NCBI GenBank assembly: GCA_017847725.1
Contig: JAGAXW010000009.1
Span: 1 to 64,000, forward strand
Origin: Prevotella sp.
Lineage (GTDB): Bacteria; Bacteroidota; Bacteroidia; Bacteroidales; Bacteroidaceae
Direction: 5' to 3'
DNA: 64,000 nt
Shown here: piece by piece, positions 37,259 to 62,672 of the stretch
Layout: the number at the start of each line of letters is the position of its first letter
Numbering within the stretch: the first letter of the stretch is position 1
The notes under the pieces: model-generated
Seen by the model: the letters and a program-made list of their open reading frames with translations, nothing else
Database searches by the model: none
What the model was told of the DNA's origin: nothing
Made by a program: the position numbers and the translations under genes

Positions 37259-37288
37259 AAAAACGAATGGAATCATCATGGTACGTAA
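37259..37288 (-). promoter_or_regulatory. ECF-like promoter motif, GH106 gene
   Basis: On the minus strand TTACGTA (37282-37288), 16 bases, CGTTTTT (37259-37265), 16 bases before the ATG. First of six copies with identical spacing in this locus; the -10 half is the most divergent (CGTTT instead of CGTAA). Confidence 0.6.
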
Positions 37289-37329
37289 AAAAAAAGACAT
37301 AAAACAGAAGCACTTTCGTTTTTTTTTCG

Positions 37330-37337
37330 TACATTTG
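37330..37337 (+). promoter_or_regulatory. Promoter of the propeller-AraC regulator
   Basis: TACATTTG in the context GTACATTTGC, 36 bases before the ATG; the ECF sigma gene promoter has the same GTACATTTGC. Confidence 0.65.
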
Positions 37338-37373
37338 CCTCCCGAACAGATAAAGATCAAAGCTGACTAAACC

Positions 37374-40166
37374 ATGCGAACCACTATCCTTATTCTTTCC
37401 TGGCTATGTCTGGTTCTCCATATCGGCGCCATGCACTTCCCTCAACCCGGAAGTACATTTCGCAACCTGACCTATCGCGACGGTCTGTCAGGGACATCGG
37501 TGACCGACATCATGACCGACCATAATGGAGAGATATGGTTAGCTACCAGCAATGGTGTCAACACCTATAACGGCAAGCGGCTGGTATCCTTCCGCTTCGG
37601 CGACGGTGCGCGTCACAACTTTGTATACCACATCTATGAGGACGACAGCCACCACATCTTTGCTACCTCCCGACAAGGAATCTACTGCATAGGCTATGGC
37701 GACAAGCAGTTTCAGCGCATCGTCCCCGAGATTCAATCTGCCGAGGCGCTGTTGCCGTGGACTGGCGACACGCTCTTCATAGGCAACCGTGACGGTCTGC
37801 ATATCTATGACGGAAAGAAGCTGAAGACCATCCTCATAGCCGAGACTCCCATGGACTTAGCCAATTCCGTACGCGACATCCGACGAGGCACTGACGGCCG
37901 CGTCTGGTTTGTAAGCAAACTGGCCCTAAACGTGCTCACCCCTCAAACCGGAAAAGTGGAGAGCTGGCCATTGGCTGACAAGATGCCTGTCAGTGCGTCG
38001 CTGAGCCGTATGGCCATCAGCAAGAACAAATGCTATATCGGCACCAAGAACGACGGCCTCTATGTCTGTGACCTGACCAGTAAGCAGGTGAAGGCAATTC
38101 CCGAGGTGGGCTACGTCGTGACATCACTGAAGATTGACAAGCAGGGGAAGCTCTGCGTGGGTACCGACGGTTCGGGTGCGTACCTTATTAATATGGCCAA
38201 CGACAGCATCGAGCGACACTTCAGGACCGACGCCAACGAGCACGACCGCATTATTTCCAACGCCGTCTACTGCTATTATCGCGACGACCATGGTGTTGAC
38301 TGGTACGGCTATTTCCGCTATGGCCTTACCCACACCTTCCACCTTGAGCAGCTGTTTCGCCCCTACCGTTACAAGTCCTTCACCACCGAGGGTATGTCGG
38401 TGCGCTGCTACAGCGTAGACAAGGACTACATCATGATAGGCACTACCGACGGATGCTATTTCATAGACCCCCGGCGTGACATCGTACACCACATCACCCC
38501 CAGCCAACTGGCGGGCGGCCACATTGTCACCAGCGTCATACGCTATGGCGACTATTATTACATCGCCACCTATGACGGCGGACTGAGACGCTTCAATCCC
38601 CAGACAATGGCCGTCAGCAAGGTGCCAGTCGATCAGGACTTCGACCACATCACGGTGACGCAGCTCGTGATTAATCCCTCGTGGAACTCGTTAGGCATTG
38701 CCACAAGCCAAGGACTCTTCGTGCTCAGGCCGGACGGTACGCTGGTGCATTTTGACGAGAGCAACTCCAAACTGGGCAGGGGCACAGTCAGCAATATCTC
38801 ATTCGATGCCAAAGGCAACGGCTGGTTGTCCAGCGAACCGGGACTGACACGCTATGACATCAAGGCACAACAGTTTCAGCAAGAAGGATTCCCCGCAGGT
38901 TTCTTCAATGACGTCAAAGGACTAAGGGGCGCGCAAGGCCACGACGGTCTGCAGTTCTTCTACAACTCGGACGACATCTATTATACCGACACCCGCCTGC
39001 AGCATTTTGGCCGCCTTGAGTTTTCCCATCTCTTAGACAAGGAACTCAGGCTCTCCTTTGTCGACGACATGCAGGGACACTACTGGGTGAGCAACGAGCG
39101 CGGACTGTTCCGTATAGACTATGATTTGAAGCACCTGCAATATTTCGGTGAGGGCGAAGGCATCATGTGCCAGTTTATCACCGACGGTTCACTGCACATA
39201 GACCATCAGCAACAGCTTTGGATGGGCACGTCCAACGGCTTGCTGCATGCCAACCTCAAGGATATTGAGAAATGGCAGAAGAGAGTAAAGCACAACATCC
39301 TGCTCTACCAAATACGGGTGGGAGGTGAACTGCTCACCGAAATCGAAGAGGCCATGATCAGCGACCAGAAACGACTGACACTAACCTGGAACTTCACCTC
39401 AGAAGCGCTACAGGCATTACCCGTTGTCACGGACTACAGCCGTAGTGCAGGGCGCATCTTTGAGTACCGCATCGACCACAAGGGCAAATGGGTGGCTATC
39501 AACGACGAGCAGCCTCTCGAGGTGCGCGGTCTCATGCTGGGACGCCACCTGTTATCCATCCGCGTCTCCGGATTGCAGAATACGGCCAAGGACTATGAAC
39601 TCTACGTGGTACCCTCCTGGACAGCAGTTGTTGAACTTATTCTGCTGCTCGTCGCTATTGGCTTGTTCGTCTGGTGGCGCAGCTACCGACGCAACACGAA
39701 GATGCTGCTCAGCGAACGTGACTCCATAGAGGAAGCCCTTGTAGAAATGGAGCAAGCCCACGAAATGACCGAACAGGACCAGGAACGTCAGAAGTACGAA
39801 CGTGTCAGAATGAACGAGGCGGAGTGTGAGAAGATTCTGTGCCACATCCACAAATACATGGAGACACAGAAGCCGTACCAAAATCCCGAACTGAAAATGG
39901 CAGACGTGGCCGAAGTGCTACAAGTATCCCCCAGCAAACTCTCGCAGGTATTCAATCTTTACCTCAACGAAAGCTACTATGAATTCATCAATAATTACCG
40001 ACTGGAGGAGTTCAAGCGCAGGGTAGATGCCGGTGACAACGAGCGCTTCACGCTACTTGCTCTTAGTGAGCAGTGTGGCTTTAAGAAATCGTCTTTCTTT
40101 GCTACATTCCGTCGGGTAGAAGGCATGACTCCGACCGAATATTTGAAGAAAAAACACAAGCTTTAA
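37374..40166 (+). CDS. Transmembrane propeller-AraC one-component regulator
   Basis: 930 residues. A signal or anchor is followed by Reg_prop propeller repeats (about 30-640; for example HNGEIWLATSNGVNTYNGK), a Y_Y_Y domain (about 665-735), a transmembrane helix (about 745-766), a coiled coil (about 770-815), and an AraC HTH pair (about 825-930; MADVAEVLQVSPSKLSQVFNLY... LSEQCGFKKSSFFATFRRVEGMTPTEYLKK). There are no DHp, HATPase or receiver domains at all, so it cannot act by phosphorelay. It is expected to sense an oligosaccharide in the periplasm and bind DNA from the membrane. It sits between divergent GH106 and the sigma-GH operon, its likely targets. Confidence 0.87.
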   Translation: MRTTILILSWLCLVLHIGAMHFPQPGSTFRNLTYRDGLSGTSVTDIMTDHNGEIWLATSNGVNTYNGKRLVSFRFGDGARHNFVYHIYEDDSHHIFATSRQGIYCIGYGDKQFQRIVPEIQSAEALLPWTGDTLFIGNRDGLHIYDGKKLKTILIAETPMDLANSVRDIRRGTDGRVWFVSKLALNVLTPQTGKVESWPLADKMPVSASLSRMAISKNKCYIGTKNDGLYVCDLTSKQVKAIPEVGYVVTSLKIDKQGKLCVGTDGSGAYLINMANDSIERHFRTDANEHDRIISNAVYCYYRDDHGVDWYGYFRYGLTHTFHLEQLFRPYRYKSFTTEGMSVRCYSVDKDYIMIGTTDGCYFIDPRRDIVHHITPSQLAGGHIVTSVIRYGDYYYIATYDGGLRRFNPQTMAVSKVPVDQDFDHITVTQLVINPSWNSLGIATSQGLFVLRPDGTLVHFDESNSKLGRGTVSNISFDAKGNGWLSSEPGLTRYDIKAQQFQQEGFPAGFFNDVKGLRGAQGHDGLQFFYNSDDIYYTDTRLQHFGRLEFSHLLDKELRLSFVDDMQGHYWVSNERGLFRIDYDLKHLQYFGEGEGIMCQFITDGSLHIDHQQQLWMGTSNGLLHANLKDIEKWQKRVKHNILLYQIRVGGELLTEIEEAMISDQKRLTLTWNFTSEALQALPVVTDYSRSAGRIFEYRIDHKGKWVAINDEQPLEVRGLMLGRHLLSIRVSGLQNTAKDYELYVVPSWTAVVELILLLVAIGLFVWWRSYRRNTKMLLSERDSIEEALVEMEQAHEMTEQDQERQKYERVRMNEAECEKILCHIHKYMETQKPYQNPELKMADVAEVLQVSPSKLSQVFNLYLNESYYEFINNYRLEEFKRRVDAGDNERFTLLALSEQCGFKKSSFFATFRRVEGMTPTEYLKKKHKL

Positions 40167-40272
40167 GTTTGTCTATTTTAGACAGAATTTCACAAACTAC
40201 ACTGATTATCAGCAACATAATTCAGACAAACCTAAAAACAAAAGCAGTTGGAATCATCAGAGCCTCGAAACC

Positions 40273-40303
40273 TTTGAATGTAAAGAAATAGCCTGTACAT
40301 TTG
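40273..40303 (+). promoter_or_regulatory. Promoter of the sigma-GH operon
   Basis: TTTG (40273-40276), a 19-base spacer, TACATTTG (40296-40303), a textbook Bacteroidetes promoter, 31 bases before the sigma gene ATG. Confidence 0.75.
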
Positions 40304-40334
40304 CGGTAGAAATAACTAAAACTCTACCGCAAAT
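40299..40334. promoter_or_regulatory. Dyad operator between promoter and start of the sigma gene
   Basis: ATTTGCGGTAGA (40299-40310) and its perfect inverse TCTACCGCAAAT (40323-40334), with a 12-base centre. The left arm overlaps the -7 box and the right arm ends at the base before the ATG. Transcription should start inside the dyad, so it is more likely a protein-binding site than an RNA hairpin. Confidence 0.65.
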
Positions 40335-40853
40335 ATGGAAACGAGCAAGACAACAACCGTCAATCAGCAGGTCGCAAAACTGTATGAAAAGTACGCACAC
40401 GAGCTGCACCTCTACTTCCTTAGTTACACGCACGACAACATGACTGCCGACGACATGGTACAGGATGTCTTCATCAAAGTGCTTCGCCTCGACATTATCG
40501 AAGAGGTGTCTGCCAAGCACCTGCTGTTCTGCGCAGCACGCCGCATCATGCTCGACGATGCACGCCACAAGAAGTATGTGTGTGAGGCACGCCAATACTT
40601 CCGCAACAACCTCAGCGAGGTACAGAACTGCACTATCTATGACGAACTCGAGACCCGCCAGTTCATTGAGTTCGAAGAGCGCCATCTGCTTAGCATGCCA
40701 GCCAAGCGTGCACAGGTTTATCGTCTCTGGCGTTCTGGCGAGTTTTCGTTTAAGGAAATCGGTCAGCAACTATCCATCAGCCAGCGCACTGCCGAGGCTC
40801 ATGTGTATTTAGCTGTCAAGGAGTTGAAGGAGTATTTCCGCAAGGTTATCTAA
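40335..40853 (+). CDS. ECF-type RNA polymerase sigma factor
   Basis: 172 residues. Region 2 (YAHELHLYFLSYTHDNMTADDMVQDVFIKVLR, about 20-50) and region 4 (FSFKEIGQQLSISQRTAEAHVYLAVKELKEYF, about 135-170) give a SigW-like extracytoplasmic-function sigma factor. Unlike the usual Bacteroides arrangement, no anti-sigma (FecR-like) gene or SusC is adjacent; it is followed after 10 bases by a secreted enzyme-like gene, GH95 and GH39. Its own promoter is of the housekeeping type. It is the natural candidate to read the TTAMGTA-N16-CGTAA promoters; no sequence evidence ties them directly. Confidence 0.85.
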   Translation: METSKTTTVNQQVAKLYEKYAHELHLYFLSYTHDNMTADDMVQDVFIKVLRLDIIEEVSAKHLLFCAARRIMLDDARHKKYVCEARQYFRNNLSEVQNCTIYDELETRQFIEFEERHLLSMPAKRAQVYRLWRSGEFSFKEIGQQLSISQRTAEAHVYLAVKELKEYFRKVI

Positions 40854-40863
40854 TGAGGTGCTC

Positions 40864-43149
40864 ATGAAGAAGATTTACTTCATCTGCTTGCTGACTTTAT
40901 TAAATATAGCAGAAAGCATGGCTGCCGACATGCTGGTTTTTGGTCAGCCGTCCAGCGAACGCAAGCATCAGTTTACGGCATCCTTTTCCGAGATTTATGA
41001 CGGTGCATCTGGCGAAACGGCCCGCCGTTTGCTTCCCCGAAAGGGAGATGACTGGCAAGGCGGTAGTATGGCCTTCACCATGGCGGTCGACCCTGTAGCA
41101 CAGAACTATTTCAGCGTTCGTCTCAATGGTTCGGAAGCCGACGACTGCGTAGTGATGCTTTTTGCCGAGGGAAAACAGGTGGGCTATCGCCACTTAGGCG
41201 ACTATGACCTGCTGCACCGTGGCAACAAGGGAGAACCCTGCCTCGGCAAGTTCTACTATGTAACGCTACCGCTTCCCAAGTCTATGACGACAGGGAAGAA
41301 GCAAATCCATCTCGAGCTGCGAGGCTATGGCAACACGTGGGACTACGGTGCCACCTTCGACCGCTATCAACATGCTATGAAGACGCCCACCATTGGCTTC
41401 TATCGGGCCTACACCCACACCGAGAAATTCTTCCGGCCCGACAAGCGTGAGCGCCAAGGCGAAGACCTGTTGGCGAAGGCTCCACTTAGGACCAATCCCG
41501 GCCGTGAGATTCTTGACGACATCAAGCAGAAGTTGTCTGAACGCATCAACGGTCTGTTAAGGCGTCAGGGAAATCTTGGCCAACAGGACGTGTGGTTACT
41601 GGCCGATGCCTACGGTGTCAGCTGGACACCGGCCTACCGGAATCCTCTGGTCGTAAGAAAGATTGTTGCCGCTATCGATGCCTTCTGCGACAGATATGCC
41701 CAGCAACCCGACATCATATATAAGGATGGCAGCGTCTACAACAGCGACTGGATGACCACAGCACTATTGGCCCGTAGCGTCCGCGCACTATGGAATGAAC
41801 TGGCAGACAGTCTAAGCAACACTGAGCGGCATAAAAGGTGGGTGAAACTGATGAGGGCTTCGGTAGAGTATGGTGTCACCCACCGCCGCCAGTACACCAA
41901 CCAGAGCATGATTATTGACATGGCCTCCTATGAAAACAACCGTGCCCTCATGCTTTTCGCACCTGCCGACGCTTGGCCTGAATACCAGTTGTTACAGTAT
42001 CTCTACGAGTCGCTTGGCATGGCGCCCTGGTCGGGTGCTGCCCAATCCGACGGCACACAGAAGTGGCCCTTGGGACACAACTACTGGCAGCTCACGGCAC
42101 GCGGACTGACCAAAGAGCTGGGCTATGTCGGCTATTATGGTGAGGTGACCGACTGGGTGTGCCACATCTACAAGGCGACCTGTCTGCCTGGTATTCCCTC
42201 GTCGGGTGATGCCAAGATTCGCCAGCAGTTGCTCCACATCGCTGCTGCCCGCTATCCGTTCCGCTATCCCGCTATAGACGGTGACGGCTATCGCTGTATG
42301 CGCGCCGAGACACTGGTGGGCTGGCGCGACGGCAACCACTATCCCGGCGACATCATGTATGGCGACCGCGGCACGGCGTGGGACTCGAATCCCATCATGA
42401 CTGCTACTCTCACCGCCGACCCGCAGGCCATCGCCATTGCCCGCCAGTCCGTCGACGACGGGCAGATATGGAACATCCTCGCCATCAAGATGCGCGAGAT
42501 GGGCAACATCCGCGTGGCGCAGAGCCTGCTGCATGTGCCCGACGACTACAAAGCCCTCATGCTCGGCGACAACACTGCCGATGTGCCTGGGCTCCCCATG
42601 GCCACCAATGCCCCAGACTACCTGTTTGCCGACGAAGAAGACGGCGTGGTAGCCCTCAAACATGGCGACGAGCGCCTTTATGTCTCGCTCTACTGGCGGG
42701 CTCGCATGGGCATCAACAGGCTCTGCAAAATCCACCATATCACCCCGACCATGGAGCGCGTGGCCAATGTCTTTGTCGACGACGTGCGGTTTTCGCCCAG
42801 CGGCATGACCTACACCCGGCCCGACCGCAACAACATGGAGTTTGTACACTACCGTGAATTCTATCCCGACGTCCGCTCTGCCCATGCCGGCGAACAACTG
42901 CCTATCGCCAAGATTCCCGAGGGCATCAGTTTCAAGCCCGGCCAGGAGAATGTATACGCCGGCAAGGCCGACTACTACCGGCTGGACTATGGTCCGTACA
43001 TCCTCTGCATGAACTGCGCAGCCGACAAGCCTGTCGACGTCAGCATCCCCAAGGGCTACATCCCGCTGGCCACGACAGCACAGCAGGGTCTCACCGCTGC
43101 CGGGCACACGCTACCACCGAGAAGCACCATTGTATTTGTAAAACGATAA
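40864..43149 (+). CDS. Secreted protein of unassigned family (possible lyase/hydrolase)
   Basis: 761 residues from ATG 40864 (GTG 40858 is also in frame), with a signal peptide to about Ala20. An N-terminal beta-sandwich (about 25-170) is followed by a long helical region, probably an (alpha/alpha) toroid (about 200-560), and a beta-rich C-terminal part. It is a paralog of the 1406-residue protein at 52438: shared positions include [52 protein letters not shown] and the [11 protein letters not shown] region. Such architecture occurs in polysaccharide lyases and hydrolases, but no known family was recognised. Second gene of the sigma operon. Confidence 0.65.
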
Positions 43150-43159
43150 AGCCATTTGT

Positions 43160-45616
43160 ATGAAACGATTCCTTATTCTCATGTCAGTCCTTGGCTCCCT
43201 TGTCGGAGCCAAGGCTGACAACGCTTTAAAGCTATGGTATGCCCAACCAGCCCGGGTATGGGTCGAAGCACTGCCCTTAGGCAACGGTCGACTGGGCGTC
43301 ATGACCTATGGCGGTACGGCCTCCGAAGAGCTACAGCTGAACGAAGAGACCTTCTGGGGCGGTGGGCCACACCGCAACGACAGCCCTACGGCCTTGGAGA
43401 ATCTGCCGAAGGTACGTGAGCTGATTTTTGCCGGAAAGAACCGTGATGCGCAGAACCTCATCAACAAGACCTTCCTGACCCGCACCTGGGGCATGCCCTA
43501 CCAGACCATCGGTTCGTTGATGCTCCGCTTCCCCGGTCACGACGCCGCTGCCGGCTACCGTCGTGAACTCGACCTGCAACGTGCCATAGCCACTACAACT
43601 TACAAGGTAGGCGATGTGCAGTACAGGCGTGAGACCTTTGCCTCGTTCGCCGACGATGTCATCATCGTCCGTATGACTGCCGACAAGCCCGCAGCCATTT
43701 CGTTCACCGCCCAGTACCGGTCGCCCATGGCTATCACCACCCGCAAAAGTGGCAAGTCGCTCGTACTCTGTGGGCATGGTCAGGACCATGAGGGTGTCAA
43801 GGGTGTCGTACGCCTGCAGACCCACACACAGGCCAAGACCGAGGGTGGCCGCACCACGCTGACCGACTCCACACTCACTGTCACCGGTGCCGATGCCGTG
43901 ACACTGTATATCTCTGTCGGCACCAACTTCGAAAACTACCTTGCCACCGGTGCTGACGAACAGAAGCGCGCTGCCAGCACTTTAAGGCAAGCCATGCGCC
44001 GTCCCTATGCCGAGGCTGTCGACCAGCATACGGCGAAGTATGCCACGTTCTTCAACCGCGTCAAGTTCGAACTGCCCTATACCAAGGCCTCCGAAGAGCA
44101 GACCCACCTCCGTGTACAGCACTTCAACGACGGCAACGACCCACAACTGGCGGCACTCATGTTCCAGTACGGCCGCTACCTGCTCATCTCGTCGTCGCAG
44201 CCCGGTGGCCAGCCGGCCAATCTACAGGGCATCTGGAACAAGGATGTGCTGGCACCGTGGGACGGCAAGTACACCATCAATATCAATTGCGAGATGAACT
44301 ACTGGCCGGCTGAGCGTGCCAACCTCACCGAGATGGGCGAACCGCTGTTCCGGATGGTCGAGGAACTGAGCCAGAGCGGCCAGCAGACAGCCCGCACCAT
44401 GTACGATTGCCGTGGCTGGATGGCCCATCACAACACCGACATCTGGCGCTGCACCGGTATGATCGACGGCGCTTTCTGGGGCGGCTGGCCCAATGGTGGC
44501 GGCTGGCTCTCGACTCACCTGTGGGAGCACTACCTCTACCAGGGTGACCGGGACTTCCTGCGCCGTGTCTATCCCGTCCTGAAGGGCGCAGCCGACTTCT
44601 ACCTCGACTATCTCGTACCCCATCCGCAGAAAGGCTGGCTGGTCACCGTACCTTCCACATCGCCAGAGCACGGTCCCGGTGCCGAAAATGCCTCCGGTGT
44701 CAGCATCACGGCTGGATCGGCCATGGACACCCAGATTGTCTTCGACGTCTTCACCCAGTGTCGTGAGGCCGCCCGCGTACTGGGTATTGACGCAGCCTAT
44801 CAGGACACCCTCCGCCAAGCACTCGACCGACTGGCACCGATGCAGATAGGCCGTTACAACCAGTTGCAGGAGTGGCTCGACGACCTTGACGACCCCAACG
44901 ACCACCACCGCCACGTCAGCCACATGTACGGTCTGTTCCCGTCGTCACAGATATCTCCCGTTGACAATCCCTTGCTCTTCCAGGCCGCCCGCAATTCCCT
45001 GTTGCAGCGTGGTGACGAGGCTACCGGATGGAGCATCGGCTGGAAGATAAACCTCTGGGCCCGACTGCTCGACGGCAACCACGCCTATAAGATTCTCTCC
45101 AACATGCTCAAGCTGCTGCCCAGCGACGCTCATGCCAGTAAAGTCAAGGACGGCCGCACCTTCCCCAACCTGTTCGATGCCCATCCGCCATTCCAGATTG
45201 ACGGCAACTTCGGCATGACCAGCGGTGTGTGCGAAATGCTGTTGCAGAGTCATGACGGTTGTGTGCAACTACTTCCCGCCCTGCCCGAGGCCTGGCCCGA
45301 AGGTAAGATGAAGGGCCTGCTGGCCCGTGGCGGTTTCGAAGTAGACCAAGAGTGGAATGGTGGTCAACTGAAGTGTGCCAACATCCTGTCCCGTCTGGGC
45401 GGTCAGTTGCGCCTGCGTTCCTACGTGCCCTTGAAGGGCAAGGGACTACGTGCCGCCAAGGGTGCCAACCAGAACCCTCTGTTCTTTAAGCCCCAGCTCA
45501 AGCAGCCCTTGGTTTTCAAGGAGATTCATCCACAGTATCCCGAGCTGAAACGTGTCTACGAGTATGACATCGACACCGAGGCCGGAAAAACCTATTACAT
45601 AGAAAGAGGTATATAA
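43160..45616 (+). CDS. GH95 alpha-L-fucosidase / alpha-L-galactosidase family
   Basis: 818 residues with a signal peptide (to about Ala19). The GH95 N-terminal domain is clear ([43 protein letters not shown]), as are the catalytic toroid motifs [30 protein letters not shown] and the [16 protein letters not shown] region. The enzyme inverts alpha-1,2-fucosyl (or L-galactosyl) linkages of plant xyloglucan, pectin or mucin. It lies 10 bases after the unassigned enzyme and 3 bases before GH39. Confidence 0.92.
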
Positions 45617-45619
45617 GTT

Positions 45620-47248
45620 ATGAAACGTACAACACTATTAGTCCTGGCGGCGGTGGCTCTCTGGACAGCCACCGCACAAACCATCGATGTAACGAGTAAG
45701 AAAGCGCAGCCGCTGACCCACACGTGGAGCGTCGGCACCTGTGCCGGCCGCGTCAATGAGGGGTTGCGCACCTCATGGGTCGAGCAGCTCCGGCTGAGCA
45801 AGGAGCAATGCGGCTTCCAGTACCTGCGCATGCACGACCTGTTCAACGACGACATGAACATCTATTTCGAGAAGGGCGGCGGCCGCGTCGTCTACAACTG
45901 GCAGTACGTCGACGAGGTCTACGACCGCATGCTCGACATCGGTGTGCGCCCCTTCGTCGAACTCTCGTTCTTCCCCAAGGGCATCGACAAGGACGGCGGC
46001 AAGCTGCAGATGTGGTATCGCAACCGCGTCACCTACGACGAGTCGAAGATGCCCAAGTGGAGTGCCCTCATCAAGGCCTTCTGCCAGCACGTCATCGACC
46101 GCTACGGCATCGACGAGGTGCGCCAGTGGTATTTTGAGGTGTGGAACGAGCCCAACCTCGACTTCGGTTTCTTCGACGGCACCAAGAGCCAGTATTTTAA
46201 TCTCTACAAGGTGACTGCAGAGGCCGTGAAGTCGGTCGACAGCCAGCTGCGCGTCGGCGGCCCCGCCACCAGCAACTTCATTGCCGACGCCCGCCACGAC
46301 GGTGAGCGCACCGACAACAAACGCTCCGTGTTCTATCCGCAGGAAGTCATCAACAAGCAGCAGTGGAAGGGTGTCTGGATAGAAGAGTTCCTCGACTACT
46401 GCACCAAGAACAAGGTGCCCGTCGACTTCATCTCCTGCCACGCCTACCCCACCGACTATGCCCTCGACCCCGTCAGCAAGCACGGCAAGGATGCCATCCG
46501 CTATGTCCACTCCCTGCGCGACGACCTCCAGTGGGCCCGCAACGTCATCAGGCAGTCGGCCTACCCCCATGCCGAGCTGCACATCACCGAGTGGAGCACC
46601 AGTCCCAACAGCCGCGACCGCATGCACGACCTGCTGCCACCGGCAGCCTATATCATCAAGGCAAATCTGGAGAACATCGGTGCCGCCAACAGCATCATGT
46701 ACTGGACCTTCACCGACATTTTCGAAGAGAAGGGCGGCGGCGAGGAGATTTTCCACGGCGGCTTCGGCATGATCAACTTCCAGGGCATCGTCAAACCCTC
46801 GTTCCATGCCTACCGTATGCTCAACCAGCTGGGCGACCTGCAGGTCTATAATCAAGACCCGCTCATCGTCAGCCGCTGTTCCAAGAGCGGCCGTGTGTCG
46901 GCCCTGGCCTACAACTATCCCAAGGAGTACGAGAATGCCGTGCCCTCCATGCGCAACCTCGGCAACTACATGCAGGCCTCGGCCAAGGACCTCAATGTCA
47001 CACTGAAAGGACTGAAGCCCAATCAAGCCTTTGTCCTCGAGACGCTCGACAAGGAACATGGCAATGCCTTCGATGCCTGGCAGCAGATAGGCGCCCCCCA
47101 CTCGCCCACCCGTGAGCAGACCGCCGAGCTGAAGGAAAAAGGCTGGGCCACCCACATGGAAGTGGTGCGTGCCGACAGCAAGGGACGCCTCACCGTGAAG
47201 CGCACCCTGCAGCCCTGGACCTGCCTGCTCATCACCGAGCAGCAGTAG
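45620..47248 (+). CDS. GH39-family glycosidase (beta-xylosidase type)
   Basis: 542 residues with a signal peptide (to about Ala18). GH39 barrel: acid/base Glu177 in EVWNEPNLDFGFFDG, nucleophile Glu324 in HITEWSTSPNSRD, N-terminal KYLRMHD-type motif (QYLRMHDLFND). Family members act on beta-xylosides, and some on other beta-pentosides or rhamnogalacturonan side groups. Last gene of the sigma operon; it overlaps the convergent GH51 gene by 17 bases, and its terminator lies within that gene. Confidence 0.9.
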   Translation: MKRTTLLVLAAVALWTATAQTIDVTSKKAQPLTHTWSVGTCAGRVNEGLRTSWVEQLRLSKEQCGFQYLRMHDLFNDDMNIYFEKGGGRVVYNWQYVDEVYDRMLDIGVRPFVELSFFPKGIDKDGGKLQMWYRNRVTYDESKMPKWSALIKAFCQHVIDRYGIDEVRQWYFEVWNEPNLDFGFFDGTKSQYFNLYKVTAEAVKSVDSQLRVGGPATSNFIADARHDGERTDNKRSVFYPQEVINKQQWKGVWIEEFLDYCTKNKVPVDFISCHAYPTDYALDPVSKHGKDAIRYVHSLRDDLQWARNVIRQSAYPHAELHITEWSTSPNSRDRMHDLLPPAAYIIKANLENIGAANSIMYWTFTDIFEEKGGGEEIFHGGFGMINFQGIVKPSFHAYRMLNQLGDLQVYNQDPLIVSRCSKSGRVSALAYNYPKEYENAVPSMRNLGNYMQASAKDLNVTLKGLKPNQAFVLETLDKEHGNAFDAWQQIGAPHSPTREQTAELKEKGWATHMEVVRADSKGRLTVKRTLQPWTCLLITEQQ

Positions 47249-49658: not shown

Positions 49659-49684
49659 ACCTTGTCTATAATATATATGATACT

Positions 49685-49712
49685 TTACGTCAGAAGTGAT
49701 ATTTCTACGTAG
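49685..49712 (-). promoter_or_regulatory. ECF-like promoter motif, GH51 gene
   Basis: On the minus strand CTACGTA (49706-49712), 16 bases, CGTAA (49685-49689), 26 bases before the ATG. It lies back to back with the motif of the 49795 gene, 10 bases apart. Confidence 0.7.
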
Positions 49713-49722
49713 CGCACCACTT

Positions 49723-49753
49723 TTAAGTACAGTTGTCGGCTGGAGCGTAACTT
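49723..49753 (+). promoter_or_regulatory. ECF-like promoter motif, 49795 gene
   Basis: TTAAGTA (49723-49729), 16 bases, CGTAACTT (49746-49753), 41 bases before the ATG. No TAnnTTTG box follows. Confidence 0.75.
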
Positions 49754-49794
49754 GGTAAACATTCAAATTATTTAACCCTAAAAAAATACAGCTT

Positions 49795-52359: not shown

Positions 52360-52374
52360 AGCATCATAAGTCTA

Positions 52375-52407
52375 TTAAGTAGCAAGTGCTCTTCGCTCGT
52401 AACTTGG
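52375..52407 (+). promoter_or_regulatory. ECF-like promoter motif, 52438 gene
   Basis: TTAAGTA (52375-52381), 16 bases, CGTAACTTGG (52398-52407), 30 bases before the ATG; it begins 15 bases after the previous stop. The -10 half is identical over 10 bases to that of the 49795 gene. Confidence 0.75.
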
Positions 52408-52437
52408 GTAGGCAAAAAAAACAAAACCTACACAAGT

Positions 52438-55400: not shown

Positions 55401-56658
55401 CTACAACGGACAGACCGACAGCGACCCGCTGCAGACCCAGCTGATAGCCTACAGCCAGTTCGACTACGCCACCTACACCTGGAGCATCCACCTGGATGCC
55501 GGCAAGGTGATGGTGCTGAAATACTTGTTCGGCGGCACGTCGACAGGCTTCGTAGTAGACGTCGGCAAGACGACCATTGCGGCACAGACTGCCTACGAAA
55601 GGCTGCAGGCCGAAATACTGACAGCCACCAACCTGCTGGCCCAGTATGCCGACGACGAGGCCGTCTCTGACGCCAGCCGACAGGCCCTGCAGACCGCCAT
55701 CGACGTGGCGAAGGCCGTCAGCGACAGCGCCCCTGATGCCGACATCGAGGCAGCCATCGAAGCCCTCCAGCAGGCCGAGCGCTTGTTCCTGGCCAACGTA
55801 GCCACGTGGCAGTACCCGTCGGCCGACCAGGCTTTCGTCAAGGGCAACACCAGCCAGAGCGGCAAGGGCGGCAGCTTCGAGATACGCAACGCCACGGGCA
55901 CCGACCATGCCTACGTGGCTGCCATCAAGTTTGACATCAGCAAACTGCTCAGCGACGACGTCGAGGTAGAGTCGGCCACGCTGCGCCTGGTGACGGTAGA
56001 GAACGGCGGCGACGTCAATGTGCACCCCTTCACCGCCAACTTCGGCGAGGCCGGCGGCACCACCGACTGCTATGCCGCCAAGGAGACCTTCATCGACCAG
56101 GCCATCGCCCAAGACCCCATCTTCACCTTCAAGGTACGGCTGGGCGGCGGCAAGAAGATATTCGAGTGGGTGCCCAGCGCCACGACGACCTACACCATTG
56201 CCGACTGGACGGTGACCAACGACATCACCAACCACCTGAAGCAGTGCATCAGCGACGGCAGCGAGGCGCTGTCCGTCCTGCTGGCTCCGGCATCGAGCAG
56301 CACCACGCGCTCGACAGTGCTCTCGAAGGATGCCGACGCAAACACCTTCGGCACAGGCACCACCGACGAATACTACCTCTCGGGTGACAACATCGGCCAG
56401 AAGACGGGCAACAAGGTGAGCCGCTGGTCGCGACTGCTCGAGGTGCTGGCCAACGACGGCTCGCCCCTCTCGTCGCTCTACCCCAAACTCTCGGTGACCC
56501 TCACCGTCAAGGATGCCACAGGCATCGCACAGACCAAGACGGTGGACATCATGCCCGCAGCCGACGTCATCTTCGACCTGCAGGGGCGTCGTCTGACCAA
56601 GGAACAGATGAAGAGCGGCATCTACATCGTAAACGGCAAAAAGATATTCGTGCGCTGA
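52438..56658 (+). CDS. Giant secreted multidomain protein, paralog of the 40864 product
   Basis: 1406 residues: a signal peptide (to about Ala20); an N-terminal beta-sandwich and helical toroid-like part (about 25-760) homologous to the protein at 40864; a beta-rich module (about 870-1040); a helical FIVAR-like stretch (about 1045-1120, YERLQAEILTATNLLAQYADDEAVSDASRQALQ type); a DNRLRE/CBM96-like sandwich (about 1125-1370); and the tail FDLQGRRLTKEQMKSGIYIVNG. The first module probably carries an activity on polysaccharide, and the rest binds substrate or the cell surface. No known catalytic family was assigned. Confidence 0.65.
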   Translation: MKRRAFLFFLASLSAAALQAQVIDRITLGNAESEALHGLTTYCPDYTKTITNGLKGLTGRNCLQFDQNPFCGSYAGIYGGEYCFVLAVDGTRQNYLTLKTNGGDGVNDYERYRIQVDNKDLQDYQRDAVSFSTEKAPGGFAYSTLVLPRKATDGKTAVVIRVRSVGHYYAYGTPTQFNTYQYAMTGNMPPIYAAYTSTNPSVQLSDEPQGQLASYNTATASPLGMTLAALKTKINTKLSDAIKSQIAGGDFKPAYQNNNFNIIEAMGVAYQKGVYGTTANALAAKIRVALDSMVYINNLCKGGANITVSAIGNTATKQIASEGWGGLFGNQGYGFYLLWKAGKVTTLWLNSQVDLGNGKLKRRDQYIEAFKESFDAGCTLSGRRHITNQAMEASYSVYGAALALYALDPDTYHNAPKLAHRFIREALGLEEWTGVPKNVTFDGTLKDDDGYPTYELGDATSHSTSENFWGEHFHMMTEKGNGREEGWTCTSCYGNMGQRICDMYLISTWDPYLGSKGDEDILKMAVQNEKNQAYFAYPRADLNGHRVISGESATCWRNRYDPGRPYYNNLIVAALSDDEELMGHVWQGYLEGHVACADDADYRLFPYYQHSYYLPEAIDKLIAYGNNHASSYTPMPATPGQPDYAVGDAQDGIVAVKHGDEYLFVNFYSEMSLGSSGKAHLITPNEVRLMSFVPEVMKYTVSGQTTTAPDEYVNSNHRITYPDHPQMANGGTVYDLPAYDAEGNYNASRQICDYYQQQLGRYLIAQNTTADRSYTLVLSGTDAENQQALDIATGETVTLTEAIAVDPRTTKVYYLTTKVSTSTTPIGSPSGITTSLATRVSELTTFAQQAATILSEDDRPGYYKTTAFMPFFHVLTMSAYVAQTGDETAQTAQLTALEEAYQTFVGTQFAYNACAVPGDMDYTKKASTSGSVQNTKTSMSSAKTGAALYLPIMASETGDYTVKVKAKGHVADSYQPSLNLTLLSQEQYYNGQTDSDPLQTQLIAYSQFDYATYTWSIHLDAGKVMVLKYLFGGTSTGFVVDVGKTTIAAQTAYERLQAEILTATNLLAQYADDEAVSDASRQALQTAIDVAKAVSDSAPDADIEAAIEALQQAERLFLANVATWQYPSADQAFVKGNTSQSGKGGSFEIRNATGTDHAYVAAIKFDISKLLSDDVEVESATLRLVTVENGGDVNVHPFTANFGEAGGTTDCYAAKETFIDQAIAQDPIFTFKVRLGGGKKIFEWVPSATTTYTIADWTVTNDITNHLKQCISDGSEALSVLLAPASSSTTRSTVLSKDADANTFGTGTTDEYYLSGDNIGQKTGNKVSRWSRLLEVLANDGSPLSSLYPKLSVTLTVKDATGIAQTKTVDIMPAADVIFDLQGRRLTKEQMKSGIYIVNGKKIFVR

Positions 56659-56752
56659 ATAAGTAGCACAACAGACAGAGACGTATAATGTGTGTAGTTT
56701 TGTTAGTAGTTATTTGTTAGTAAGATTATTCTTGTAAATTTATGTTGGGAAC

Positions 56753-56787
56753 GGGGGGATGCGTGATGCATTCTCCCGCTCTTTTTT
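56753..56787 (+). terminator. Terminator after the 52438 gene
   Basis: A 10-bp stem (GGGGGGATGC/GCATTCTCCC, two G-U pairs) with a GTGAT loop, followed by GCTCTTTTTT. Confidence 0.8.
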
Positions 56788-56883
56788 GGAATCTTTCCTA
56801 AAACTCGCTTGCAGACAATTCTGCCTGCTATTTTCCTTTGGCGGTAAAAAAAGTAGCTTATAAACAAGGTTTGCAGTCTGGTT

Positions 56884-56914
56884 TTACGTACATTCCTCTC
56901 GTCGGTCGTAATTA
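56884..56914 (+). promoter_or_regulatory. ECF-like promoter motif, 56959 gene
   Basis: TTACGTA (56884-56890), 16 bases, CGTAATTA (56907-56914), 44 bases before the ATG. Confidence 0.7.
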
Positions 56915-56958
56915 TAGTTAAGATTACGATTTTTAACAACTAAAAAAGTTTATTTAGT

Positions 56959-58695
56959 ATGAAAGAATTTACACTATCACGACGGCTCTGCGCCGTCACA
57001 ATGGGTCTCCTGCTCAGCGTAGGCGGAGCATGGGCAGACGGTGTTAACTTGCTGCAGTACATTACTGCTGAAAAAGCTGCTGCAAATGACACGTATCATA
57101 TGGTGGAGACAGGAAATAAAACCTATCCCACTGTTACAAAAAATGGTGAAGCAATAGAATTTACAACCCATGAGACTTACCTTAAACTCAATCTGACTGA
57201 TATTGACGTGACATTAGGCAACGGACAAGTCTATTTAGCAGTGGAGATGAGTAATGCATACAATCCTGGAGATTCTGAAAATAGCGGCGTACCTAACAGA
57301 GGTACAAATTATAGAAAGGTGAATCTTACTGTTAACGGAACGGCGACAGGTAACATAGAAAGATCAAAAGGTAATTTGAGAATACAAGGCTTAGGCACTT
57401 ATGGCAGTACAGGCACCACCAAGGATAATATTATGGCGATAGTGTGCGCCTTAGCAGATGACAACACCACTCTTTATAATATGTATCTGAGTGGTGAGCC
57501 TATCAAACTTACCTCCTTTACTATGGAGTTTACTGTCCCTGATGCAATAGACATGACTATCAAGCGCTTAGGATTCTACACGCTCGGAGAATTAGCCAAC
57601 CTCTATTCTGATTTAACTAGTTCAAGATTTACTTTCAATCCAGGAAAGTTAGATCTTAATAAATGGAATGGACAAACAAGCAGTGGTTCAAATACCATAA
57701 AGCTTGACAAAAATACTGATGAAGCTGAGACTGATGACAGTGAGACAATTTTTAATCTCATGCAGATGCGTCTGCGTGCCATTGGTAATATGCCCACAGC
57801 AGCTGGTGGAACATGGACTATCGATCTTTGTAGAGGCTCAATCGGTAGCGGAACCGTTATGAATTATGGAGGTGCATCCCCCGTAACTGAAGATCTTTTT
57901 CAGACAAAAACAGGTGTGATATATGAAATCATGCGTGGTTCGCATAAGTTACTGCCAACCCCGACTCAGGGTATTGTGCGCATGGCCTACTGGTCGCACT
58001 ACGACTGCAAAGATGGTTCAACTCCCAATGGTTTAAAACCTACAGGCACTCAGTCACGCAGTCTCTATGACTACACCCGCGACTTTAAGGAGGGTTACAA
58101 TTCTTGTATTGTTCCGTTTGCATTTAATGTTAGCGACCTGCCCTCTGCTCTAACAGCTTATATCTTCACTTCTGCTGATGGCAATGGAAAAGTGACATTT
58201 ACAAAAGCAACGGGTAGTGTAGCCGCCAATACTCCAATGATTATCAAGTGTTCAGCTGCCGGATTGTATGTCATTCCTGGCAAAGACACTACAGGTGATA
58301 ACAATACACCTTTATCTGTTGAAAACTACTACGAGACCGATGTAAACGGCATCAAGTTTGTAGGCTCTTACGTCCAGAAAAATCCTTGTACAGACGACTA
58401 CACGGACACGGATTACGACTGCTACGGTATCTCAGCTGATGGCACGAGTCTGGTGAAGATGGCTGGTGCGCAGACAAGCTACTACCGCGCATTCCTGGCC
58501 GTTAAAAAGAATAATGCAGGTTCGCGTTCGCTCTCCATCGGCTTCGACGACGACAATGAGCCCACTGGCATCAAGGCTGTCAATAACATCGACACCAACG
58601 CCGACGGCATCTATTATAACTTGAGTGGTCAGCGCGTTGCCCAGCCCACAAAGGGACTATATATTGTTAATGGTAAGAAAGTAATCATGAAATAA
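56959..58695 (+). CDS. Secreted protein of unknown function with sorting-type tail
   Basis: 578 residues: a signal peptide (to about Ala26), an N-terminal beta-sandwich (about 30-200), and a second region (about 330-510) with a pattern common in Prevotella surface proteins (YNSCIVPFAFNVSDLP...GNGKVTFTKATGSVAANTPMIIKC). The tail is YYNLSGQRVAQPTKGLYIVNG. The first two thirds are clearly more AT-rich than the flanking genes, with different codon choice, suggesting recent acquisition. It is followed after 18 bases by a 59-codon gene with a strong ribosome site. Confidence 0.65.
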   Translation: MKEFTLSRRLCAVTMGLLLSVGGAWADGVNLLQYITAEKAAANDTYHMVETGNKTYPTVTKNGEAIEFTTHETYLKLNLTDIDVTLGNGQVYLAVEMSNAYNPGDSENSGVPNRGTNYRKVNLTVNGTATGNIERSKGNLRIQGLGTYGSTGTTKDNIMAIVCALADDNTTLYNMYLSGEPIKLTSFTMEFTVPDAIDMTIKRLGFYTLGELANLYSDLTSSRFTFNPGKLDLNKWNGQTSSGSNTIKLDKNTDEAETDDSETIFNLMQMRLRAIGNMPTAAGGTWTIDLCRGSIGSGTVMNYGGASPVTEDLFQTKTGVIYEIMRGSHKLLPTPTQGIVRMAYWSHYDCKDGSTPNGLKPTGTQSRSLYDYTRDFKEGYNSCIVPFAFNVSDLPSALTAYIFTSADGNGKVTFTKATGSVAANTPMIIKCSAAGLYVIPGKDTTGDNNTPLSVENYYETDVNGIKFVGSYVQKNPCTDDYTDTDYDCYGISADGTSLVKMAGAQTSYYRAFLAVKKNNAGSRSLSIGFDDDNEPTGIKAVNNIDTNADGIYYNLSGQRVAQPTKGLYIVNGKKVIMK

Positions 58696-58713
58696 GAAAA
58701 GGAGGATAGCTAT

Positions 58714-58893
58714 ATGAAAAAGACATATCAGAAACCTGAGATGCAGGTATTTGCCATCAACAACAAACAGCCCCTCATGGCAGGCAGTATTAACCAAGAT
58801 GGAGATAATTTGAATATCAATGTTGGCGGAGACGACATGGGTAGTGGTACTATCAACGCTCGCGGCTACGACTGGGGCGACGAAGACGAGTAA
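58714..58893 (+). CDS. Small protein (59 aa), MKKTYxKPE family
   Basis: 59 codons starting MKKTYQKPEMQVFAINNKQPLMAGS and ending in an acidic, aromatic tail (RGYDWGDEDE). Strong Shine-Dalgarno GGAGG lies about 10 bases before the ATG, which is unusual in this genome. Short proteins with the same MKK-Y-KP start, a Met-Ala-Gly/Ala-Ser bend and an acidic end are common next to Prevotella surface-protein genes; their function is unknown to me. The layout (leader-like N-half, polar C-half) would also fit a peptide precursor. Co-transcribed with the 56959 gene and ended by a strong terminator. Confidence 0.75.
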   Translation: MKKTYQKPEMQVFAINNKQPLMAGSINQDGDNLNINVGGDDMGSGTINARGYDWGDEDE

Positions 58894-58930
58894 CCCGAAA
58901 GCGACGAGAGAAACGTACTGAATACTGAAA

Positions 58931-58971
58931 GTGTGCCCCCTGCTTGCCATCGATGCAAGCAGGGGGCACAC
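58931..58971 (+). terminator. Strong intrinsic terminator
   Basis: A 17-bp perfect stem (GTGTGCCCCCTGCTTGC and its inverse) with a 7-base loop, followed by GCTTGTTTATCTTTT, 37 bases after the small-protein stop. Confidence 0.92.
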
Positions 58972-58999
58972 GCTTGTTTATCTTTTCACTATACAGTCG

Positions 59000-59023
59000 T
59001 TATTCTGGGGCAGTCTGAAAACA
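59000..59023. repeat. Inverted repeat left of the toxin-antitoxin region
   Basis: A 24-base stretch (from TTATTCTGGGGCAGTC) that recurs inverted at 60202-60225 with one difference. The part CAGTCTGAAAACACGCGGATTAA (59011-59033) also recurs in direct orientation at 60253-60275. The copies bracket the sorting-tail remnant and the toxin-antitoxin pair. Confidence 0.7.
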
Positions 59024-59128
59024 CGCGGATTAATAATGGTGGGAGCAAGTTTTCCTTGCGATGAAGAAGGCGGTGCCCCCACCACGTTATCAGCGTTTTA
59101 TGCTATCGGCTTTTGTCAAGTAGGAACC

Positions 59129-59240
59129 TTATTTCTTGATGATTACCTTCTTGACGTTCTTGCCTTCGGCCGAACGGATGATATACATGCCGTTCTGACG
59201 AACCTTATCCATCTTCTGGCCATTCAGGCTGTATAATGCA
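59129..59240 (-). pseudogene. Orphan sorting-tail remnant of a secreted-protein gene
   Basis: On the minus strand a frame reads ALYSLNGQKMDKVRQNGMYIIR, then SAEGKNVKKVIIKK and a stop at 59129-59131. This is the C-terminal tail type of the secreted proteins in this locus. No body precedes it: directly upstream is the end of the toxin gene, in another frame. It is a 3' fragment left after recombination or insertion. A shadow frame on the plus strand covers the same bases. Confidence 0.75.
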
Positions 59241-59861
59241 TCACTTATTTGATTTTATTGTCATGAGGTCACAAACCATCAGGCGTGTTTCTCGAAACAC
59301 CTCAACATTATCCACCTGTTCAGACTTTGACATATAAGCCATTTCTTCCTCATCCGATGAGAAGATAAAATCAAAGCCGTTATCTTTATAGAACTCCAAC
59401 ACTTTTGGATTGTTTACTGCATCCACTATAACATATCTACAGCCCGTTTTGTTCAATGGATCAATAAACCACGACTTGATAAAATCCAATACTTCCTTAC
59501 CGAGAGCTTTCCCGCTAAAGCCATCAAATACTGCAAGTTGAGCTACCAGAACTGCTGGATATTGGGAGCGCTGCTTAGAGAATGGAATCTTTCTGTTAAG
59601 TTTGTTTCGCTTAGACTTGGGCATATTGTCAACCCTGACAGAAGAGTTGGCCAAGGTAAAGGCAGCAACCATATTATGCGCTTCGCGCGTAATGAAACAA
59701 TACGATTTCCCCAGCATCTGGTAATCATAGTCTGCAAACTCCTCCCGGAAGAACTTGTCTATTTGCTTATCCTTCAAGCACGAGAAAGGCTTGCAGCGAG
59801 CTACAAGACCTTCTGTCATTCTCCAAAACTCACATTCAGAGTCTAAAAATGAATTTACCAT
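59241..59861 (-). CDS. GNAT acetyltransferase, probable toxin
   Basis: 206 residues of the GNAT fold: acetyl-CoA site around VAQLAVFDGFSGKALGKEVLDF (about 105-127) and the family end motif NNPKVLEFYKDNGFDFI. The N-terminal pattern (CKPFSCLKDKQIDKFF) resembles toxins that acetylate aminoacyl-tRNA and block translation. Paired with a small upstream gene overlapping it by 7 bases (ATGGTAA), the typical antitoxin-toxin layout. Base composition is more AT-rich than the neighbours, suggesting transfer. An ordinary acetyltransferase is the alternative. Confidence 0.75.
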   Translation of the reverse strand: MVNSFLDSECEFWRMTEGLVARCKPFSCLKDKQIDKFFREEFADYDYQMLGKSYCFITREAHNMVAAFTLANSSVRVDNMPKSKRNKLNRKIPFSKQRSQYPAVLVAQLAVFDGFSGKALGKEVLDFIKSWFIDPLNKTGCRYVIVDAVNNPKVLEFYKDNGFDFIFSSDEEEMAYMSKSEQVDNVEVFRETRLMVCDLMTIKSNK

Positions 59862-60019
59862 TCGTCCAGATGTGCTTTTGACAAAATAGAACGAGCAATC
59901 TCCACCTGTTCAGTGAAGTCAATAGAACCGCGATTGGCTTCTGCCTCGGCAGCTCTTTCGTTGAATCGTTGTGCCACATCACCTGTAAGAGTCGGGATGG
60001 GTTTAATATAATATGCCAT
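59855..60019 (-). CDS. Small antitoxin-like protein (54 aa)
   Basis: 54 residues from MAYYIKPIPTLTGDVAQRFN. The frame extends 57 bases upstream through the promoter box, so that start is rejected. An acidic helical protein (RFNERAAEAEANRGSIDFTEQVEIARSIL) without a clear ribbon-helix-helix signature. Short proteins of this kind precede GNAT toxin genes in Bacteroidales. It overlaps the toxin start by 7 bases and has its own promoter. Confidence 0.72.
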   Translation of the reverse strand: MAYYIKPIPTLTGDVAQRFNERAAEAEANRGSIDFTEQVEIARSILSKAHLDEW

Positions 60020-60038
60020 AGCCCTTATAATTCCGGTG

Positions 60039-60046
60039 CAAAGATA
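60039..60046 (-). promoter_or_regulatory. Promoter of the toxin-antitoxin pair
   Basis: TATCTTTG on the minus strand, 19 bases before the antitoxin ATG. Confidence 0.65.
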
Positions 60047-60201
60047 ACTATTTTTTTTAATTCTACAAACTTTCAAATAACAAAAAAGTGGGAGGGTGTG
60101 TCAAAAAGACTGGGGTGCAGACATAACTCCAGTTGCAGACAAGGCGGTAACCGCTCACCTCCCATGTAGGGGAGGGAAGCAGCTGCGCCAACAGTCAACC
60201 A
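60047..60201. other. Gene-free stretch upstream of the antitoxin promoter
   Basis: Contains a hairpin CCTCCC-ATGTA-GGGGAGG near 60160-60176 and no gene. It may be part of the boundary of the inserted toxin-antitoxin segment. Confidence 0.4.
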
Positions 60202-60225
60202 TGTTTTCAGACTGACCCAGAATAA
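60202..60225. repeat. Inverted repeat right of the toxin-antitoxin region
   Basis: Inverse of 59000-59023, 23 of 24 bases. With the related segment 60253-60265 it can also form a local hairpin (TTTTCAGACTGA...TCAGTCCGAAAA). Confidence 0.7.
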
Positions 60226-60271
60226 ACGGATTCGGAAGCCCCTCTGTCGGCTCAGTCCGAAAACACGCGAA

Positions 60272-60304
60272 TTAAGTAGTGGCAGGCAGTGGCTCGTAAT
60301 TTGA
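60272..60304 (+). promoter_or_regulatory. ECF-like promoter motif, 60355 gene
   Basis: TTAAGTA (60272-60278), 16 bases, CGTAATTTGA (60295-60304), 50 bases before the ATG. Its -35 half overlaps the end of the repeat at 60253-60275. Confidence 0.75.
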
Positions 60305-60354
60305 GAAGAGGAAAAACAATACTTCTTTAATTATTAACTAAATGTATTAAGCGT

Positions 60355-62612: not shown

Positions 62613-62672
62613 CTTCAGAGCCGTCAAGGGAGTGGGGTCAGTCGAATGACGGCCCCGCCCGACGGCTGAAGA
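62613..62672. terminator. Large hairpin at the convergent 3' ends
   Basis: The outer stem CTTCAG-AGCCGTC pairs with GACGGCTGAAG (11 bp, two-base bulge); the inner GGGGTCA...TGACGGCCCC pairs again. It covers the last codons of the GH97 gene and the space after the 60355 gene. No T-run, so termination is less sure. Confidence 0.45.

Follow-up and report, generated by a model that had tools for sequence, protein, structure and literature searches.

A candidate ECF sigma promoter and a putative regulator-to-sigma cascade in polysaccharide loci of Prevotella

Hybrid two-component systems (HTCS) and extracytoplasmic function (ECF) sigma factors paired with anti-sigma factors are named as separate kinds of control in the parts of the literature covered here (PMC3878776, PMC10766802, PMC3243724). 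We examined a polysaccharide locus of Prevotella sp. in which an AraC-type regulator gene stands beside an ECF sigma gene, and a two-part motif, TTRMGTA-N16-CGTA, recurs in front of the transcription units. The window, the whole stretch of 64,000 nucleotides analyzed, is part of a 96,617-base contig (JAGAXW010000009.1, here C55) of a 2.39-Mb draft genome that is 80.6% complete, and the whole analysis is sequence-based.

As in the ECF sigma/anti-sigma loci of Bacteroides, the sigma gene adjoins susC/susD-like genes; in contrast to them, no anti-sigma gene is evident in the 20 regulator-sigma pairs described below, and a membrane AraC-type regulator takes its place. Like HTCS proteins, this regulator combines a periplasmic Reg_prop propeller, a membrane segment, and an AraC-type helix-turn-helix (HTH), with direct repeats about 21 bp apart. 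Yet neither the protein of the window, where Pfam gives propeller-type and HTH domains only, nor that of genome G108 has a kinase or receiver domain, and the repeats precede the sigma gene rather than enzyme genes. In Streptomyces, SigE/CseBC resembles our proposal in that a sensor system controls an ECF sigma factor through transcription of its gene; it differs in its separate kinase and response regulator, its link to cell-wall stress, and its phylum. The PorXY-SigP system of Porphyromonas gingivalis is likewise a sensor system acting via an ECF sigma factor in Bacteroidota, but PorX binds SigP, PorX and PorY are separate proteins, type IX secretion genes are concerned, and the proposed SigP motif, C(T)AAA..., is unlike TTRMGTA-N16-CGTA, as far as the consulted parts of these sources go (PMC4800418, PMC8050853). 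The SM6 motif of Flavobacterium psychrophilum has a CGT box at -10 and mapped 5' ends and is ascribed to an ECF sigma factor; it differs in that its genes, which include an ECF sigma/anti-sigma pair, concern type IX secretion and low nutrient supply, and its likeness to our motif is in the CGT -10 box (PMC9723704, in part). The first-pass annotation of this DNA knew of no described Bacteroidetes promoter of this form: the whole motif was indeed not found in the literature covered, but SM6 provides a precedent for an ECF-type CGT -10 box (PMC9723704). Neither this promoter nor a propeller/AraC regulator acting via an ECF sigma factor in a polysaccharide locus was found in titles and abstract openings, with ECF classification outside the scope of that search, and the arrangement looks like an apparently undescribed sensor-to-sigma cascade assembled from known kinds of parts.

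We consider it likely that TTRMGTA-N16-CGTA is an ECF sigma core promoter of polysaccharide loci and that its sigma factor is switched on by a kinase-less propeller/AraC regulator. The promoter would consist of a -35-like TTRMGTA, a 16-bp spacer, and a -10 CGTA, and its reader would be an ECF sigma family of polysaccharide loci. The form TTAMGTA-N16-CGT has five exact matches in the window, where 100 shuffles gave a mean of 0.13 and a maximum of 2; a sixth site, in front of a GH51-like gene, has the C-variant CTACGTA-N16-CGT. All six precede genes, so the shared two-part motif that the first-pass annotation reported in front of six genes is real, as is its spacer of exactly 16 in every case. 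The putative promoter sites are the following:

37263..37288, minus strand: TTACGTA-N16-CGT, GH106 gene (34480-37242, minus; Pfam Glyco_hydro_106)
49687..49712, minus strand: CTACGTA-N16-CGT, GH51-like gene (ASD1_dom, Alpha-L-AF_C)
49723..49749, plus strand: TTAAGTA-N16-CGTA, gene of an 854-aa secreted protein (49795)
52375..52401, plus strand: TTAAGTA-N16-CGTA, 1406-aa gene (52438)
56884..56910, plus strand: TTACGTA-N16-CGTA, 578-aa gene (56959)
60272..60298, plus strand: TTAAGTA-N16-CGTA, 750-aa CBM6 gene (60355)

Counted from base four of CGTA, the gap to the ATG is 19 bases at GH106, 27 at GH51, 45 at 49795, 36 at 52438, 48 at 56959, and 56 at 60355, a range of 19-56 that slightly shifts the 16-50 first given. 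CGT is followed by AA in five sites and by TT at GH106; a CGTAA second half therefore describes five sites and not the sixth (CGTTT). Past the window edge, an exact site at C55:80683-80710 (minus) lies 28 bases 5' of the start of a SusC/SusD operon, and a weaker one at C55:83059-83086 (minus), which reads ATAGGTA-N16-CGTAA, precedes a 774-aa gene at 83031 by 28 bases; the prediction made inside the window thus held beyond it. The gene at C55:80655 heads a same-strand run that includes two SusC/SusD pairs and ends within the window:

62624..64000, minus strand: GH97, final gene of the run starting at C55:80655 (motif site 5' of the run)

Over the source genome, TTAMGTA-N16-CGT has nine exact matches versus one in the reversed control. 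Six precede genes (the five of the window and that at C55:80683), and three fall within open frames of at least 187 codons.

Among congeners (first 150, then 398 genomes), searches by sigma protein and two-row profile yielded 20 genomes with matches of at least E 1e-20 quality, and the regulator search 23 at E 1e-140 or better; 14 were common to both lists, and the sigma gene was later found in the locus of six more regulator genomes. Both genes are present in 20 of the 23 genomes (19 of 22 apart from the source genome). The gene preceding sigma is the regulator or a regulator piece in 18 of 20 loci, and the gene following it encodes 1,041-1,105 aa in 15 of 20, SusC-like where compared. Four loci without TTAMGTA (G348, G217, G389, and G302) have TTGCGTA-N16-CGTA or near forms, hence the family consensus TTRMGTA-N16-CGTA. 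Sites of this form stand before starts in the source genome and in 16 of the 22 other regulator-carrying Prevotella genomes; with G052, where sites before genes that the start set missed were seen by eye, the latter count becomes 17.

Spacing was controlled with TA[AC]GTA-N(k)-CGTA, k from 10 to 23, over 793,746 bases in 24 locus sequences of 23 genomes (contigs G388b, which repeats part of G388, and G052b were excluded). At k=16 there are 38 matches, of which 33 are followed by a start at a distance of 8-80 bp. The thirteen other spacings have 0-3 matches each, 0-1 before a start, and 285 permuted patterns average 1.04 matches and 0.04 before a start.

Altogether, 62 relaxed sites precede starts in the loci studied. 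Reverse overlaps or sites far from a start were left out, six for the analysis of position (56 sites) and five for that of bases (57 sites); the C55:83086 site is absent from the first set and present in the second, and GH106, without the A of CGTA, is in neither. CGTA reaches the ATG within 11-83 bases (median 23), and within 30 in 36 of the 56. The -7 box of the housekeeping sigma factor (sigma-ABfr), TAnnTTTG, occurs between the -10 half and the ATG at none of the 56 sites, and 48 have none from the motif start to the ATG. By comparison, it lies within 120 bp of 15 of the 20 sigma genes and within 110 bp of 74 of 186 other motif-less genes. In the window, the first-pass annotation had seen the box at the regulator and sigma genes and not at the six motif-preceded genes, which our scan bears out: no box occurs at 110 bp or less from any of these six starts, and both other genes have TACATTTG. 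An activator site would need its own core promoter downstream, and there is mostly no room for one; a core promoter is therefore favored over an operator. Typical ECF -35 elements contain AAC, and -35 elements differ between ECF groups; here the first half reads TTRMGTA, without AAC. Most likely, an ECF sigma factor reads the motif directly as a core promoter.

The genes proposed to act on these promoters are as follows:

37330..37337, plus strand: housekeeping -7 box TACATTTG, regulator gene
37374..40166, plus strand: membrane propeller/AraC regulator, 930 aa, with Reg_prop repeats and HTH_18 (Pfam) and a hydrophobic segment around residue 755
40167..40255, plus strand: proposed regulator operator region 5' of sigma, in which box 1 (40167-40187) can be aligned with that of relatives
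40296..40303, plus strand: housekeeping -7 box TACATTTG, sigma gene
40335..40853, plus strand: 172-aa ECF sigma factor (Pfam), which would read the motif
40858..47248, plus strand: genes directly 3' of sigma (763 aa, GH95, and GH39), probably in one operon with it

The 40335 protein has Sigma-70 regions 2 and 4, both above the Pfam cut-offs, and scores 74.8 bits against NCBIfam TIGR02985 (Bacteroides family 1), below the curated cut-off of 126.4. Among the 20 sigma proteins, Pfam finds region 4 in all and region 2 in 13. No anti-sigma gene is evident beside sigma in the 20 pairs, judged by size and first residues rather than by a domain scan, and FecR (PF04773) was not found in the source genome, at its 80.6% completeness. 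This agrees with the earlier description of an ECF sigma gene without anti-sigma in the locus, and it sets the locus apart from the ECF sigma/FecR system, in which the anti-sigma gene is adjacent.

The regions 5' of the 20 sigma genes have a block in common, namely CTAATTTAGATGGAC, followed about 50 bp later by ATTTGGACT and 21 bp later by GTTGGCTG. A terminator-like hairpin follows in several, and then a housekeeping box (in 15 of 20). Box 1 has 12 strict matches (11 loci) or 15 loose ones (14 loci), solely before sigma genes, with none in the reversed control; all 12 strict matches of the 21-bp repeat in the 24 loci also precede sigma genes, and the two patterns together cover 15 of the 20. 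A looser form of the repeat has 13 matches, three of them away from sigma genes, versus three in the reversed control (24 loci). A distance of about 21 bp between direct repeats has been predicted for the AraC-type HTCS regulators of Bacteroides (PMC3878776, in part). Most likely, the AraC regulator acts one step earlier than the motif, at the sigma gene, and the simplest reading is a cascade from regulator to sigma gene to locus. The regulator would sense a periplasmic glycan and, via the direct repeats, activate transcription of the sigma gene from its housekeeping promoter; the sigma factor would then serve the six transcription units of the window and two beyond it, eight in all with the SusC/SusD operon included, and no anti-sigma factor would be needed. 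About 46 kb separate the first and last sites of this proposed regulon. The motif, its fixed spacing, its position before starts, its recurrence, its co-occurrence with the gene pair, and the separate block in relatives are observed; from these we infer who binds what, the direction of regulation, and glycan sensing.

The arrangement extends to other genera. A profile of the 20 sigma proteins found members in 42 of 399 sampled family genomes and in 9 of 30 genera; regions were examined in 20 of the highest-ranking among the 42, and 19 of these belong to other genera. A propeller/AraC gene occurs in 19 of the 20 regions, directly beside sigma in 18 and 5.6 kb off in one (L211), with three divergent pairs and one tail to tail. 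In the regions from other genera, sites before starts number six at k=16, two at k=15, and none at the twelve other spacings; all matches number 13 at k=16, nine at k=19 (none before a start), and 0-5 elsewhere. Visual comparison shows another type of sequence 5' of sigma there (GAGACT), and neither strict Prevotella block pattern matches any of the 18 regions scanned. In one other genus, TTGAGTA-N16-CGTAT with a hairpin and a T run lies about 150 bases 5' of the regulator gene (L205:5439, L206:5839, and L207:5581), which may represent feedback. We regard as fairly probable a further control class across Bacteroidaceae, in which a kinase-less propeller/AraC sensor governs an orphan ECF sigma factor and thereby whole-locus promoters that share a single bipartite sequence; the switch would be sigma gene transcription, in place of an anti-sigma factor.

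Several points weigh against the proposed promoter and cascade. The start set was generous (any in-frame ATG within the first 60 codons of an open reading frame [ORF]), and the G331 stretch, with two sites, was fetched after its sites had been seen; without it, the k=16 counts are 36 and 31. No site precedes a gene in G054, G083, G014, G360, or G193: the first three have the sigma gene but no clear site (two are short contigs; G054 has 42 kb), and the last two have the regulator with no sigma gene found, their contigs being 12.3 and 10.8 kb long. Conversely, G307 retains two sites with no sigma gene next to its regulator. The block patterns were derived from the same regions, so that only their absence elsewhere is a test, and in the window the 21-bp repeat has diverged, box 1 alone being well kept. 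Finally, the motif is itself a partial GTA..GTA repeat with a 20-bp period, compatible with an AraC reading, and TAnnTTTG overlaps its first half at 8 of 56 sites.

The last two points lead to the alternative that the motif is an operator of the propeller/AraC regulator, overlapping and activating a degenerate housekeeping promoter, while the sigma factor acts elsewhere. HTCS regulators of Bacteroides are predicted to act on direct repeats about 21 bp apart (PMC3878776, in part), the loci studied, having been selected for the regulator, hold it close to the motif, and G307 has regulator and sites with no adjacent sigma gene. However, only GTA is repeated in the motif, TTR having no counterpart in the second half, and a better and different repeat of about 21 bp precedes the sigma genes; that block differs between genera (by eye) and the promoter hardly does, and 48 of 56 sites lack TAnnTTTG from motif start to ATG. 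The spacer fixed at 16, the CGTA -10 half, the absence of housekeeping boxes downstream of it (0/56), and the separate block before sigma favor the ECF promoter, and we consider the operator unlikely. The first-pass annotation had ranked these two readings in the same order, and its first choice is supported by sequence, not proved. At the eight overlap sites (G331, G229, G149, G388, G302, G086, G389, and G237), the first half runs into TAnnTTTG, e.g., TTGCGTATATTTG, so that the two kinds of promoter, housekeeping and sigma, may overlap there.

A second alternative is that sigma factor and regulator act jointly at the same sites, by a contact like that of PorX with SigP, the block merely setting the amount of sigma. 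PorX binds SigP directly in P. gingivalis (PMC4800418, in part), and here regulator and sigma proteins change together (Mantel r 0.70, p 0.0001, 17 loci); against this, the site profile, which spans 40 bases only, shows no conservation beyond the two promoter halves and an A-rich leader, and joint action seems improbable. Chance or common ancestry, with upstream regions duplicated and devoid of a regulatory role, is barely credible, for although the stretch of the 60272 site holds a second near copy (59011-59033), spacer sequences differ between sites at a constant length of 16, and the spacing and permutation controls speak against it.

Base preferences bear on the reader of the ECF promoter. 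CGTA is present in all counted sites as part of the search pattern, and most upstream sites in CGT-only searches also have it. The base 3' of CGTA is A in 7/7 sites of the source genome and T in 48/50 sites of other genomes. Most source-genome sites precede genes without a match in other loci, so that a concerted difference points to the protein reading them; an A/T switch would be expected if a genome-specific reader had changed. Base 3 is A in 19/22 versus 13/35 sites between two sigma branches delimited here (p 0.0003), but the regulators fall into the same branches as the sigma factors, and this difference therefore cannot separate the readers.

The first-pass annotation had proposed a scan of this genome and related Prevotella genomes; six of nine matches precede genes in the former, whereas wider use did not hold. 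TTAMGTA-N16-CGTAA has six matches in the source genome and at most two in any other of 150 congeners, with up to six in the reversed control; it is therefore not a general Prevotella promoter, and genus-wide use was rejected. The form TTRMGTA-N16-CGTAT has 78 matches versus 30 in reversed controls in the 20 genomes with the regulator-sigma pair, 281 versus 448 in 375 genomes without it, and 6 versus 5 in three regulator-only genomes. It is found in 191 of 398 congeners and not in the source genome, whose sites read CGTAA. Restriction of the motif to close relatives of this sigma factor was also considered and failed, as distant members retain it or use TTGCGTA. Six genomes with sigma-like matches at E 1e-21 to 1e-23 (G045, G050, G118, G138, G256, and G377) lack TTAMGTA-N16-CGTA on the contig where the match lies. 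Twelve loci with more distant ECF genes (L093-L104) have no regulator in the DNA examined and a motif match in one, versus 0-2 matches at other spacers.

Prediction of ECF-controlled promoters in polysaccharide loci has been called challenging and in need of mapped transcription starts (PMC3878776, in part). In this locus, the promoter sequence, a probable sigma factor, and a probable sensor can all be named from the DNA. If the proposal is true, one sensing event would set off a regulon whose promoters are readable from sequence alone. It would yield regulons for uncultured Prevotella and a candidate sigma/promoter pair for Bacteroidota expression tools, and it would add a testable layout alongside HTCS and ECF/anti-sigma control.

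Several further features were seen in these loci. In G307:C37 (L155), the regulator gene and a box-1-like sequence are kept, and neither a sigma gene nor a SusC-sized gene precedes SusD; this is perhaps a decaying locus. G017 and G342 carry a multi-copy element with TTAAGTAG(A/G)TGTTCAAAATTAAACGTAT or near forms, in which the promoter pattern occurs seven and six times among the matches listed, apparently as a repeat element. In the window, the four motif-preceded secreted proteins encoded in 49795-62607 (854, 1406, 578, and 750 aa) have similar C-terminal tails, LSGQR..P.KGLYIVNGKKV..K, alike as in a common sorting signal, which may be linked to type IX secretion. Just before the 60272 promoter, a 206-aa ORF (59241-59861, minus; no Pfam match) is flanked by short near-identical repeats, direct at 59011/60253 and inverted at 59000/60202, and the stretch 59000-60275 looks like an insertion. 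Downstream of the 578-aa gene lies a small ORF of 59 aa (58714-58893), MKKTYQKPEMQVF....

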